A DNA stretch of 64,000 nt from an uncultured bacterium (GTDB lineage: Bacteria; Bacteroidota; Rhodothermia; Rhodothermales; UBA10348): NCBI GenBank assembly GCA_943788505.1, contig CALSQR010000002.1:62001-126000 (forward strand). Direction: 5' to 3'. Shown in pieces: positions 27,904 to 34,142 of the stretch. Position numbers and translations under genes: made by a program. The first letter of the stretch is position 1. Each line of letters starts with the position of its first letter. Under the pieces are notes generated by a model. It was not told the origin of the DNA, made no database searches, and worked only from the letters and a program-made list of their open reading frames with translations.

Positions 27904-29409
27904 ATGCGCCAGATACGTGAGTATTGCGGTATTTTTGGCATTTACAATGCCCAGGACGCTGCCCACAAGATTTACATGGGGCTGCATGCCCTACAGCACC
28001 GGGGACAGGAATCTGCCGGTATTGTTACATCGGTGTACGATGAGGTGAAGGGCAAAAAAATAATGCCCGTCCACAAGGGACCCGGCCTAGTTTTGGACGT
28101 CTTTAAAGACCACTCAATTTTCGAGGACAAGCTGCTCGGTTCATCGGGGATTGGTCACAACCGCTACTCCACATCGGGTGCGGCAGACAATGCCGCCAAT
28201 ATCCAGCCCTTCTTAGTTCATTACCGAGATGGTAATCTGGCGCTGGCGCATAACGGTAATATCTCCAACGCAAGGGAAATCCGACGCAGCTTTATCGAAC
28301 GAGGCACCCTGTTCCAGAGCACAGCAGATTCAGAACTGATCCTGCACCTGATTGCGCAAAGCACACGCCGCAAACAGATCGATAAAATCATTGATGCGGT
28401 TTCCCAGTTGGAAGGGGCATTTTCACTGGCCATTCTTACTGATGATGCGCTTATTGCGTTGAGGGATCCAAACGGATTCAAACCGTTGGCCCTTGGCCGT
28501 ATCCCTTCCGCGTCGGGCGACCCGAAAGAAGACAGTTGGTGCATAGGCAGTGAAACATGTGCTTTCGATCTCGTTGGCGCAGAGTATATGCGTGATGTGC
28601 AGCCAGGAGAATTGGTTGTCATCAATCAGAAGGGTATTGAAAGAGGGACGTTCTCATCCTATCAGCTCGCCCAAAACAATGGCGTAAGCCAGTGTGTATT
28701 CGAATATATCTACTTCTCCAGGCCTGACTCGAAAATCTTCGGAGAAATGGTCGATAAGGTTCGTCGCAAGTTGGGCAAGCAATTAGCTCATGACGCACCC
28801 GTTCCTGAAGTAGCTGATGGTGAAGCAAGACCAATTGTCATCAGCGTACCTGACTCTTCTAATACCGCTACCCTCGGGTACGTGTCAGAGTGTAAGAAAA
28901 TCGGGCTGAGAGCCAAATATGAGATCGGCTTGATCCGAAATCATTATGTAGGACGGACCTTTATTGCTCCCGGACAAGAAAGTCGTGAACAGCGAGTACG
29001 AAGCAAATTCAATACCGTTGAAGGCGTTATTAAGGGCCGAGTCGTCGTCATGTTGGATGATTCAATCGTTCGCGGTACTACCGCCAAGCAGCTTATCAAA
29101 ATGGTTCGTGACGCTGGAGCCAAAGAAGTTCATTTCCGTGTGGCTTCCCCACCCGTCGTTAGTCCATGTTTCTATGGCATGGACTTCCCGAGCTACGAAG
29201 AGTTGTTCGCTAACCAGCACCTAGGAGACATTGACGCCATGGCAAAATGGCTGGGGGTCGATTCACTCGGATATCTAAGCGTTCAGGGAATGAAGGATGC
29301 GGTTCACGCAGCAAACCCAAGTGGCCAAGGATATTGCGATGCCTGTTTCTCCAAGGAGTATCCCGTTCCTGTCGACATGACGGTCTCCAAGGATGAAAAT
29401 GAGTGGTAA
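27904..29409 (+). CDS. purF: Amidophosphoribosyltransferase PurF
   Basis: This catalyses the first committed step of purine synthesis, moving glutamine amide nitrogen to PRPP. The N-terminal Ntn glutaminase domain begins MRQIREYCGIFGIY, so the catalytic Cys would be exposed by removal of seven residues. HNRYSTSG and ALAHNGNISN follow. The PRTase domain has the PRPP loop VVMLDDSIVRGTT. A late Cys-containing segment (GYCDACFS) is usual. Length 501. The frame is open upstream to 27691, overlapping the previous gene, but that part is not family-like. The stop lies inside a terminator hairpin. Confidence 0.95.
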   Translation: MRQIREYCGIFGIYNAQDAAHKIYMGLHALQHRGQESAGIVTSVYDEVKGKKIMPVHKGPGLVLDVFKDHSIFEDKLLGSSGIGHNRYSTSGAADNAANIQPFLVHYRDGNLALAHNGNISNAREIRRSFIERGTLFQSTADSELILHLIAQSTRRKQIDKIIDAVSQLEGAFSLAILTDDALIALRDPNGFKPLALGRIPSASGDPKEDSWCIGSETCAFDLVGAEYMRDVQPGELVVINQKGIERGTFSSYQLAQNNGVSQCVFEYIYFSRPDSKIFGEMVDKVRRKLGKQLAHDAPVPEVADGEARPIVISVPDSSNTATLGYVSECKKIGLRAKYEIGLIRNHYVGRTFIAPGQESREQRVRSKFNTVEGVIKGRVVVMLDDSIVRGTTAKQLIKMVRDAGAKEVHFRVASPPVVSPCFYGMDFPSYEELFANQHLGDIDAMAKWLGVDSLGYLSVQGMKDAVHAANPSGQGYCDACFSKEYPVPVDMTVSKDENEW

Positions 29410-29424
29410 AACCACTCGTTTTTT
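29401..29424 (+). terminator. Terminator overlapping the purF stop codon
   Basis: GAGTGGT (29401-29407) pairs with ACCACTC (29411-29417) around AAA, followed by GTTTTTT. The last two sense codons form the left arm and the TAA stop (29407-29409) runs from the arm into the loop. Confidence 0.75.
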
Positions 29425-29582
29425 ATGGCCGAATAGAACTCCTCTCTTGCTTCAACGAGCCACATCGCTGTGTATTTGTGCAGTTTTTTAGGCTAGCTCC
29501 TACTGCATTTTGCCCTTTTCTGGGCTTCAAAGGTGGTTTTTATGCATTAGTGCCACTACTCTGTAACAAATTTGCCTACAAG

Positions 29583-29613
29583 TTGTGGCGATATATATGT
29601 GTGTGTATATTGG
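29583..29613 (+). promoter_or_regulatory. Promoter-like site before the ORF-free region
   Basis: TTG at 29583-29585 is followed after 20 bases by TATATTGG (29606-29613), close to the Bacteroidota primary-sigma pattern TTG-N19/20-TAnnTTTG. It lies downstream of the purF terminator and just before a 7-base-stem hairpin at 29624. Confidence 0.4.
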
Positions 29614-29619
29614 CGTTAG

Positions 29620-29920
29620 TTCGCTGGGCCGTTGCACATGGCCCAGTTGGACCGCAGAATCGGGGGAATGCTCACCTCCACCTCTGTTCCATACCGAACC
29701 TACACAGCCACATACCCATGCGAAATCCGGTCGATCGGGCTATAAAAGCCATGACGTACGGAGTCGGAGTGGTTGGACTACTGATTTTCACAGTGTTCCA
29801 GCTCCTCTGAGTCCCGGTCCTACTGATCCGACGAAAAGACTTCCATTTCCCCTCGTGATTCCATTCACGGGCGGATTCGGCACCGAATCTGCACAGTCAT
29901 TTTATGACTGTGCATTTTTT
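29620..29920 (+). ncRNA. Candidate structured non-coding RNA of about 300 nt
   Basis: The region lies between the purF terminator and a second strong terminator, has its own promoter-like site, and shows no protein-like frame. Visible structure: CTGGGCC paired with GGCCCAG (29624-29646); an interrupted hairpin GGAG..GGA..ACTG with CAGT..TCC..CTCC (29766-29805); CGTGA/TCACG (29854-29869); GATTCGG/CCGAATC (29874-29889); then the terminator. I do not recognise it as tmRNA, SRP RNA or RNase P RNA from their conserved cores. 6S RNA cannot be excluded by eye. It could instead be an untranslated segment of a longer transcript. Confidence 0.4.
29890..29920 (+). terminator. Rho-independent terminator with no coding gene before it
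   Basis: A perfect 10-base stem TGCACAGTCA/TGACTGTGCA with a 5-base loop is followed by TTTTTT. The nearest upstream protein gene, purF, already has its own terminator 480 bases earlier, so this one most likely ends an independent RNA. Confidence 0.85.
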
Positions 29921-29997
29921 GTATCCACTGTAAATTGAACCGTATCCTGACGGACATCGTACACGTAAAAACCGCCTAAATCAGCTAGTATTAGAAC

Positions 29998-31251
29998 GTG
30001 TTGCCAAAGCGCCCTCGGATACTTGTCGTCGTCAACGTATTTCGCCCCGATCTGGGTGGAGGCGTCCTCTTTGCTGATCTTTGTGACGGTCTTGCGGCCA
30101 GTGGGTTTGATGTAACAGTACGATGCGCCTACCCCTACTACCCACAGTGGAGAGATATTTCTGGGCAAAATGGACTCACTATTCGGACAGAAAAACATGG
30201 TGAGTTGACAGTTGAGCGATTCGGCCTGTATATCCCTTCTAATCCGAACAGCTTTCTCCAGCGCCTAATCTACGAGGCGTCCTTTTATTTGAGTTTGTCC
30301 AGACGCCCTATTAGAAAGGGACAGTTTGATGCAGCCCTCGTTTTTTGTCCCCTCGTTGGATCAGTTGCATGGGCTACAGCGGCCGCTCGACGAGCAGGTA
30401 TCCCCCTTTGGCTCAACGTACAAGATTTTTCTGCCCAAGCAGCGGCGGCGGGCGGATTTGCATCAACTACTGGCTGGCTTGAACGAATCCAAAATCATTT
30501 CTTCCGAAAAGCCCCTTTCTGGAGCTCGATATCGGAGGATATGGTCTCTGTTCTCAAGTCCATTCCAGATAGCCCCGACGAAATCCACCTGATCCCTAAC
30601 TGGCTGCATACATCCCTTGGCACACTGATTGATCAGTCTGTCGCACAGAGACCCAACAGGCCGCATCAACCCGTCCGGCTTCTCTATTCAGGAAACATCG
30701 GAGGGAAGCAGAATCTGCTGGCTTTCTGTCAGAAACTCGCGCAACTTGAGACACCCTTTCACTTTCGGATCCATGGAGAAGGTGGCCGCGCGGATGAGGT
30801 TCGAACGTGGATTGCGCAAAGTAGAGACGAACGATTCGAAATGCGGGATCTGACTGACGAATCCGGTTTGGTCGATGCTCTGACGTCGTCCGACCTATAT
30901 GTAATCACCGAACGACCGGGCTCTGGCAGCTCCTTCGTACCTTCCAAACTCATCCCTGGCATGACCTCCAGAACGCCCATTCTGGCAATCTGCGACCCGG
31001 ATGGGCCGTTGGGTCGCGAAGTCACGGACTACGGTATTGGCACGAGGCTTGACTGGAATGACCTCGAACGTCTCAATGGCATTTTTGCGTCCATTGCCCA
31101 GGACCCCCAGATATGGAGGTCGTGGAGCGAGAATGCACGGCGTCGCAGCAACTTCTATTCTCGGGAAAGAGGAATTGCCCGGTGCGTTCAGGCCCTAGAG
31201 CGGATCCTGTCATTGAATCAGGTCGATCCTGACACCTTAACAAAGGAATGA
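29998..31251 (+). CDS. Glycosyltransferase family 4 protein, WcaI-like
   Basis: A GT-B glycosyltransferase of about 417 residues. The N-terminal nucleotide-fold half has RILVVVNVFRPDLGGGVLFADL and CAYPYYPQW, as in WcaI-type enzymes of colanic acid and exopolysaccharide pathways. The C-terminal half has LLYSGNIGGKQNLL and a terminal region with ERPGSGSSFVPSKL, the usual nucleotide-sugar binding zone. The start is GTG (29998) or the adjacent TTG. It is not within a polysaccharide cluster; its downstream neighbour is a GroES-like gene only seven bases away. Donor and acceptor are unknown. Confidence 0.82.
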   Translation: MLPKRPRILVVVNVFRPDLGGGVLFADLCDGLAASGFDVTVRCAYPYYPQWRDISGQNGLTIRTEKHGELTVERFGLYIPSNPNSFLQRLIYEASFYLSLSRRPIRKGQFDAALVFCPLVGSVAWATAAARRAGIPLWLNVQDFSAQAAAAGGFASTTGWLERIQNHFFRKAPFWSSISEDMVSVLKSIPDSPDEIHLIPNWLHTSLGTLIDQSVAQRPNRPHQPVRLLYSGNIGGKQNLLAFCQKLAQLETPFHFRIHGEGGRADEVRTWIAQSRDERFEMRDLTDESGLVDALTSSDLYVITERPGSGSSFVPSKLIPGMTSRTPILAICDPDGPLGREVTDYGIGTRLDWNDLERLNGIFASIAQDPQIWRSWSENARRRSNFYSRERGIARCVQALERILSLNQVDPDTLTKE

Positions 31252-31258
31252 GAATATC

Positions 31259-31660
31259 ATGGGCGATTTGATCATGGTAGGCGATCGGGTGCTGATCGCA
31301 CCTGATGAAGGAGAACGAAAAACGGATTCCGGCCTGGTGCTTCCTGCGTCAGTGGCAGAAAAGGAGCGCGTACGTGGCGGCCGGGTTGTGAGTATTGGCC
31401 CGGGATACGTCACGCCAAACCCGGAGTTTAGTGAGGGAGAACCCTGGTCTCAAAATCGGGAAGCCGTGCGATATCTTCCGCTCCAAGCACGCCCCGGGGA
31501 CTACGCTTTTTTCCTTCGGAAAGAATCTATCGAAATTCAGTTTGAAGGCAGCGCCTTTCTCATTGTACCTCATAGCGCCATCTTAGCCCTGCATCGGCAC
31601 GACGCCGATCACATTCTAGACAACTTGGGCTCACTTGACGATCTAGAGAACGAAGAATAA
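31259..31660 (+). CDS. GroES-like co-chaperonin family protein (divergent)
   Basis: A 133-residue Cpn10-fold protein. It has VGDRVLIAPDEG, then a mobile-loop equivalent KTDSGLVLPAS that retains the hydrophobic GLVL tripeptide used to dock on GroEL, and VVSIGPGYVTP. An insertion of about 25 residues separates that strand from PGDYAFFLRKESIEIQFEG, where the classical protein has a Tyr-Gly-Gly segment. A polar, acidic tail (LDDLENEE) is added. Standard GroES is about 95 residues and paired with groEL; no groEL is here. It may be a specialised paralogue. It is coupled to the glycosyltransferase upstream. Confidence 0.75.
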   Translation: MGDLIMVGDRVLIAPDEGERKTDSGLVLPASVAEKERVRGGRVVSIGPGYVTPNPEFSEGEPWSQNREAVRYLPLQARPGDYAFFLRKESIEIQFEGSAFLIVPHSAILALHRHDADHILDNLGSLDDLENEE

Positions 31661-34061: not shown

Positions 34062-34135
34062 GGCGAGGTAGCTCAGCTGGTTAGAGCGTCGGATTCATAA
34101 CCCGGAGGTCGAGAGTTCAAGTCTCTCTCTCGCCA
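34062..34135 (+). tRNA. tRNA-Met (anticodon CAU)
   Basis: A full cloverleaf is visible. Acceptor stem GGCGAGG/TCTCGCC (one G-T pair), D stem GCTC/GAGC, anticodon loop TTCATAA with CAT at 34096-34098, and T stem GAGAG/CTCTC with loop TTCAAGT. The anticodon stem has an A-C mismatch next to the loop and a T-G pair at its outer end. CCA is not encoded (the gene ends ACAT). A GG start pairing with CC argues for elongator Met; the lysidine-modified Ile tRNA also has a CAU anticodon and cannot be excluded by eye. Confidence 0.93.
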
Positions 34136-34142
34136 CATTTTA

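Follow-up and report, generated by a model that had tools for sequence, protein, structure and literature searches.

Layout of the locus downstream of purF

The locus lies in the window, by which we mean the whole 64,000-nucleotide stretch of DNA that was analysed, and it occupies the intergenic stretch between purF and a glycosyltransferase-like gene. The features, all on the plus strand, are as follows.

27904-29409, plus strand: purF, the upstream neighbour (name taken from the earlier note on this DNA; relatives found by tblastn)
29401-29424, plus strand: hairpin (29401-29417) and T-run at the purF stop codon, between purF and the unit described here, read directly
29577-29613, plus strand: promoter region TACAAGTTG, with a -33-like TTG (29583-29585), the spacer TATATATGTGT (29592-29602) and the -7-like TATATTGG (29606-29613), read directly and aligned across 13 syntenic relatives
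29613-29717, plus strand: structured 5' leader, from pair counts on alignment A3, single folds and conserved leader sequence
29619-29652, plus strand: leader hairpin H1, with a core of 29624-29632 and 29638-29646
29654-29687, plus strand: leader hairpin H2, with TGCTC (29669-29673) in the apical loop
29688-29700, plus strand: TCCATACCGAACC, the beginning of the 3' part of the leader, which continues as an A/C-rich stretch up to the start codon
29718-29810, plus strand: coding sequence of a predicted 30-residue single-pass membrane protein, MRNPVDRAIKAMTYGVGVVGLLIFTVFQLL, with stop codon TGA, from codon pattern, profile searches and hydropathy
29811-29889, plus strand: 3' untranslated region, poorly conserved, with a GGATTCGGCACCGAATC hairpin directly before the terminator
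29890-29920, plus strand: intrinsic terminator, consisting of the inverted repeat TGCACAGTCATTTTATGACTGTGCA (stem 29890-29914) followed by TTTTTT
29998-31251, plus strand: glycosyltransferase-like gene with a GTG start, the downstream neighbour, named by eye
31259-31660, plus strand: groES-like gene, the next conserved neighbour, named by eye

An earlier note, made from the sequence of the window, had placed a discrete RNA of about 300 nt here, and most of the signals that it described were found. The promoter-like site, TTG followed after 20 nucleotides by TATATTGG, was confirmed by direct reading and its motif is conserved in syntenic relatives; the CTGGGCC (29624-29630) and GGCCCAG (29640-29646) arms of the first hairpin are present, and the strong terminator at 29890-29920 recurs in relatives, its GCAC...GTGC hairpin and T-run aligning in 13 syntenic loci. 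The further terminator assigned to the end of purF fared less well: hairpin and T-run can be read at 29401-29424, but the terminator scan lists the site on the minus strand only. Other hairpin and T-run sequences were seen by eye 3' of purF in many syntenic relatives. A discrete unit of about 300 nt, rather than a tail of purF, is supported by both sequence and conservation and would agree with the original proposal.

The promoter consensus of Bacteroidota comprises TTTG at -33 and TAnnTTTG at -7, and the window presents the same arrangement of TTG, N20 and a -7 element, except that the latter reads TATATTGG and not TAnnTTTG. A scan for sigma-70-type promoters did not list this site and returned one promoter-like site on the minus strand, at 29927-29899. 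Terminator-like sites between 27500 and 32000 numbered six, against a shuffle mean of 4.4 (sd 2.4). Since the promoter motif and the terminator at 29890 recur at matching places in syntenic relatives, it is on conservation that the case beyond chance rests.

At Rfam gathering scores the 64-kb window yielded a single match, to a tRNA-Met (CAT) at 34062-34136. None fell within the region, and tmRNA, SRP RNA, RNase P RNA and 6S RNA were consequently rejected as identities, in line with the note's exclusion of the first three. RNase P RNA is encoded elsewhere in the same genome, and 6S RNA (RF00013) was searched for there without a match at E <= 0.001. With permissive settings, Rfam matches in the region stayed well short of their cut-offs. 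The one with the lowest E-value (0.011), to ylbH on the minus strand, scored 23.4 bits where 50 are required and was treated as chance.

A conserved 30-codon reading frame

When the intergenic stretch was aligned for the window and 13 relatives, most of it proved unconserved, with four conserved blocks corresponding to the promoter, parts of the leader, a stretch of 93 bases and the terminator. The 93-base block is the open reading frame 29718-29810 on the plus strand, with the product MRNPVDRAIKAMTYGVGVVGLLIFTVFQLL. The earlier note had seen no protein-like frame in the region; this one is strongly conserved as protein. Thirty codons are below the length usually reported by gene finders. In all 14 genomes the frame is exactly 30 codons long and free of indels, and its stop codon varies between TGA, TAA and TAG. 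Variable columns number 12, 6 and 29 of 31 at the first, second and third codon positions, respectively, with 383, 239 and 1532 pairwise differences, and synonymous codon differences (1281) far outnumber replacements (428). If variation ignored the frame, at least 29 variable third positions out of 31 would be expected with a hypergeometric P of about 1e-9, a value that treats columns as independent and ignores relatedness. Purifying selection on the sequence of the small protein was thus found.

Two longer frames were dismissed, one (29403-29810) ending with the 30-codon frame, for which the reading frame 5' of the ATG is not kept, and the other (29585-29938) in a different frame. The open length 5' of the ATG ranges from 10 to 103 codons in 11 genomes, and the distance from the exact TATATATGTGT to the ATG from 107 to 126 nt in 10 genomes, with differences that are not all divisible by three.

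The gene occupies a largely fixed position within the family. A tblastn search of 18 loci found purF adjoining the match in 13, with the glycosyltransferase-like gene also present in 12 of these; the other purF-bearing locus (L008) ends before that gene, and the remaining five loci, which are weak DNA matches, have neither. Among family carriers, purF lies upstream on the same strand in 24 out of 24 and the glycosyltransferase-like gene downstream in 23, the exception (L069) stopping at a contig edge. Outside the family, 40 match regions were fetched, some of them clipped by contig ends and some representing second copies; purF occurs upstream within the stretch in 15 and a groES-like gene downstream in 21, one or both being present in 30. 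L115 and L036 show the order purF, small frame, groES-like gene, with no glycosyltransferase-like match in between. The neighbours vary outside the family and name no partner. In L094, L103, L111 and L127 the small gene is immediately preceded by a gamma-glutamyltransferase-like gene, identified by eye, that is encoded on the opposite strand.

Searching 60 related genomes at the DNA level placed the region in the genus and in parts of the family, many further matches being weak and at chance level. Protein profiles reached further. Of the 27 family genomes, 24 matched a profile of 14 sequences at E below 1e-17, and no match was obtained in G009 (70% complete) or G014 (99% complete); a 25th match in the family, in G018 (E 0.013), spans 12 residues within a 432-residue frame and was taken as chance. 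With a 19-row profile, 73 of 114 genomes of the order matched at E <= 0.01, and 19 of 296 genomes of the phylum at E <= 0.001, all 19 within the order. A 40-row profile matched 68 of the 114 order genomes at E <= 0.001 and the same 68 among 244 genomes of the class; the counts suggest that the 114 are part of the 244, in which case the other 130 class genomes gave no match. In all of these profile searches, sequences used as rows match by construction. The 46 order genomes without a match at E <= 0.001 include G014 and 16 listed genomes of f15, and the gene is not universal in the order Rhodothermales. Weak matches to the 19-row profile in G046, G056, G067, G068 and G086 were gone in the later 40-row search. 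L110, L111 and L113 (f12, beginning MNRLIP..., and f9) are possible distant relatives, weak with profile A2 and unmatched with A6. A DNA search of PLSDB plasmids with the region gave no match.

Most matching genomes (61 of 68) carry a single match. Two matches each were found in six order genomes outside the family (G036, G047, G038, G048, G057 and G097), and the family genome G023 has two on one contig. In the latter (G023:C91; L074 and L083) the locus of purF, small gene and glycosyltransferase-like gene occurs twice on opposite strands, reflecting either duplication or an assembly artefact. The second copies in two f11 genomes (L095 and L116) have a common neighbourhood; further second copies occur in f13 genomes (L098, L100 and L106), where L098 and L106 have a common neighbourhood, and the second copy in L098 is directly preceded, as seen by eye, by a frame whose final part is a cold-shock-like protein. 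The neighbours of second copies, examined as clues, indicated no evident partner.

Across 40 sequences M1, I9, G17 and V19 are invariant, and near-invariant positions include Asp at position 6 (39 of 40) and Phe at position 27 (37 of 40); at position 20, 33 sequences have Gly and the other 7 Ser. The best 18-residue Kyte-Doolittle mean is 1.93 for the window protein (residues 13-30) and at least 1.87 in all 40 rows, so that by hydropathy each contains a single hydrophobic helix long enough to span a membrane. The first ten residues carry one to three Lys or Arg, and a charged residue occurs beyond position 12 in only three of the 40 rows. The predicted shape is that of a charged N-terminus followed by one membrane helix.

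Neither Pfam nor NCBIfam contained a model matching the window protein at E <= 10, no relative was found among PDB sequences, and the 40 members or their profile gave only scattered matches to these three collections, at E 0.016 or worse. Membership of the CydX, KdpF or cytochrome oxidase small subunit families was not found, a lone member matching COX6C at E 0.16. As judged from these comparisons, the small protein is a new family, matching no described family searched, and very small membrane proteins are a known kind, one that is easily overlooked in annotation. No description of it was found in the excerpts available from a licence-limited collection of literature on small proteins of Rhodothermales, Rhodothermus and Salinibacter ruber. 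An unassigned helix of the Rhodothermus marinus alternative complex III was considered as an identity and set aside; excerpts of PMC5928083 mention one unassigned density, which is periplasmic, and report no density for ActG, a subunit predicted to have one helix.

The promoter spacer and the structured leader

In 15 family genomes, representing four genera, the small protein gene carries the spacer TATATATGTGT in almost invariant form. Allowing one mismatch, the pattern TATATATGTGTNNNTATATT occurs in 16 of the 27 family genomes, once per genome; 15 of these sites, 13 of them exact, are at the small protein gene. Reversed as a control, the pattern occurs once in all 27 genomes combined. The 16th genome, G018 (74% complete), has a one-mismatch site at G018:C148:7418-7437, and the gene was not found there. 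At up to one mismatch the motif was not found in g3, g8, g10 and G012, all gene carriers, and it is thus unneeded for having the gene. The conserved spacer at 29592-29602 suggests a bound regulator, for which it would constitute a putative operator.

The leader (29613-29717) can form the two hairpins H1 and H2. Base pairs were counted on alignment A3, comprising eight genomes (seven of the genus and G010). Double-sided changes occur in 15 of 19 leader pairs, and 75.7% of the cells form a standard pair, about 24% failing to do so. The covariation score of 0.556 compares with a shuffled mean of 0.282, no shuffle out of 500 scoring as high, and with 0.271 for the best slid version, a control in which the structure is favoured through having been derived from the same alignment. 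A conserved leader structure with compensatory changes, one feature of cis-regulatory leaders, was therefore found. GCTC in the H2 loop and TCCATACCGAACC 3' of H2 are identical in all eight genomes.

The outermost pairing varies with the approach. In the lowest-energy fold of the window leader, GTTCG (29619-29623) pairs with CGAAC (29695-29699), unlike the outer H1 pairs that were counted, and in single folds of the window, G002, G005 and G010 this GTTCG/CGAAC helix encloses both hairpins in place of those pairs. Single leader folds gave z of -2 or lower in 7 of 16 cases, with L072 and L073 no better than shuffles. A leader covariance model run over 42 loci scored strongly on the eight training sequences, at E 0.002-0.009 on three g6 leaders and at E 0.2-0.5 on three g3 leaders. 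Inspection by eye showed a hairpin at the H2 position also in single folds of six g6 leaders, a short H1 in g6, and a differing leader in g3 and g10. The leader resembles the structured 5' leaders and cis-regulatory RNAs of Rfam in having covarying hairpins between promoter and start codon, but it matches none of those families at gathering score. For the 3' untranslated region (29811-29889), folding showed no clear advantage over shuffles (z -0.78).

Interpretation of the locus and its product

The region is very probably a protein-coding gene that has a promoter, a leader and a terminator to itself. Its RNA is best read as a short mRNA with a structured 5' leader, since the compensatory structure sits upstream of the reading frame. 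The earlier note's alternative, a non-coding structured RNA gene of about 300 nt in which the frame would be accidental, could draw on the covarying leader hairpins, on the lack of an Rfam match at gathering scores and on folding energy, none of 100 dinucleotide shuffles folding as well as the segment 29613-29925 (z -6.2). However, the reverse strand also beats its shuffles, less strongly (z -3.6), and folding energy alone therefore says little. The compensatory changes that the note proposed to look for exist, but they were shown in the leader upstream of the frame, and the proposed Rfam check, negative for known families, leaves an RNA gene still failing on the coding frame. The most conserved block is in-frame and indel-free in 14 genomes, with a common end point, varied stop codons and change that is mainly at third positions and biased towards synonymous differences, and conservation of the protein reaches other families of the order, whereas the leader model extends only within the family, and weakly. 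With the codon statistics already weighing against it, a non-coding RNA gene is extremely improbable.

Other explanations retain the frame and differ over its role. A leader peptide encoded by the 30 codons, with the terminator acting as an attenuator of the downstream glycosyltransferase-like gene, would fit a short frame followed by an intrinsic terminator 5' of a gene on the same strand; this reading is nevertheless very unlikely, given that the protein sequence is itself conserved, that it has no run of one regulatory amino acid, and that the frame stays when the gene 3' of it differs (glycosyltransferase-like within the family, groES-like in L115 and others). A hydrophobic toxin of a type I toxin-antitoxin system, with the leader controlling translation, is as a role hardly probable: TisB is likewise a hydrophobic peptide of about 30 residues with a single helix and a structured leader, but type I toxins are mobile and poorly conserved, and the window protein is deeply conserved, syntenic at a fixed locus, under strong purifying selection and mostly single-copy.

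A further alternative concerns the leader of the same gene. This leader might be a genuine regulatory element acting in cis, either riboswitch-like or bound by a regulator protein, and would respond to a signal by switching the translation of the membrane protein. The covariation of H1 and H2, the identity of GCTC and TCCATACCGAACC in all eight genomes and a promoter spacer motif with a single copy per genome, located at the small gene in 15 of the 16 genomes having it, speak for such an element. We regard it as unlikely, though worth serious consideration, as a small-molecule pocket would be expected to have more conserved unpaired residues, H1 is short or the leader different in some relatives, and the structure could serve stability and open initiation alone.

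For the protein-coding gene, the following scheme may be envisaged. Transcription would start just past the promoter at 29583-29613, at about 29613-29620, and would end at the terminator, at about 29920, yielding a monocistronic transcript that spans a two-hairpin leader of about 105 nt, the 30-codon frame and a short 3' untranslated region. Translation would start at 29718 without a Shine-Dalgarno sequence, the leader hairpins possibly keeping an A/C-rich ribosome landing site open, an idea that draws on the report that Bacteroidetes lack Shine-Dalgarno sequences (PMC6847099). Its transfer is an assumption, NCBI placing Rhodothermales in the phylum Rhodothermota, neighbouring Bacteroidetes. 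The product would have a short N-terminus, usually with two or three Lys or Arg and with Asp6, followed by a hydrophobic helix carrying Gly17 and Gly or Ser at position 20. By the positive-inside rule of membrane protein orientation, it would be inserted as a single helix with its N-terminus inside.

In size, in its one hydrophobic helix and in its short charged N-terminus, the protein resembles CydX, KdpF, AcrZ and MgtS, single-pass accessory proteins of about 29-50 residues; it differs from them in forming its own monocistronic unit, away from any recognised partner complex, and in matching no family model. By analogy with CydX, KdpF and AcrZ, it may pack against a larger membrane protein as a small subunit with an accessory or assembly function, a role that we hold somewhat short of an even chance. 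More speculative, and rather doubtful, is the extended proposal that a core membrane machine has, throughout the lineage, this 30-residue protein as a subunit or regulator, the dose of the protein being set by a promoter with a bound spacer together with a new signal-sensing leader RNA.

Here a conserved microprotein had been taken for a non-coding RNA. With its promoter, leader, reading frame and terminator defined, the locus also offers a test case for translation that lacks an evident Shine-Dalgarno sequence. It encodes a microprotein kept across many families of an order, mostly near the same neighbours, and if this protein is a subunit, then a component of some membrane complex of these bacteria would have been overlooked.
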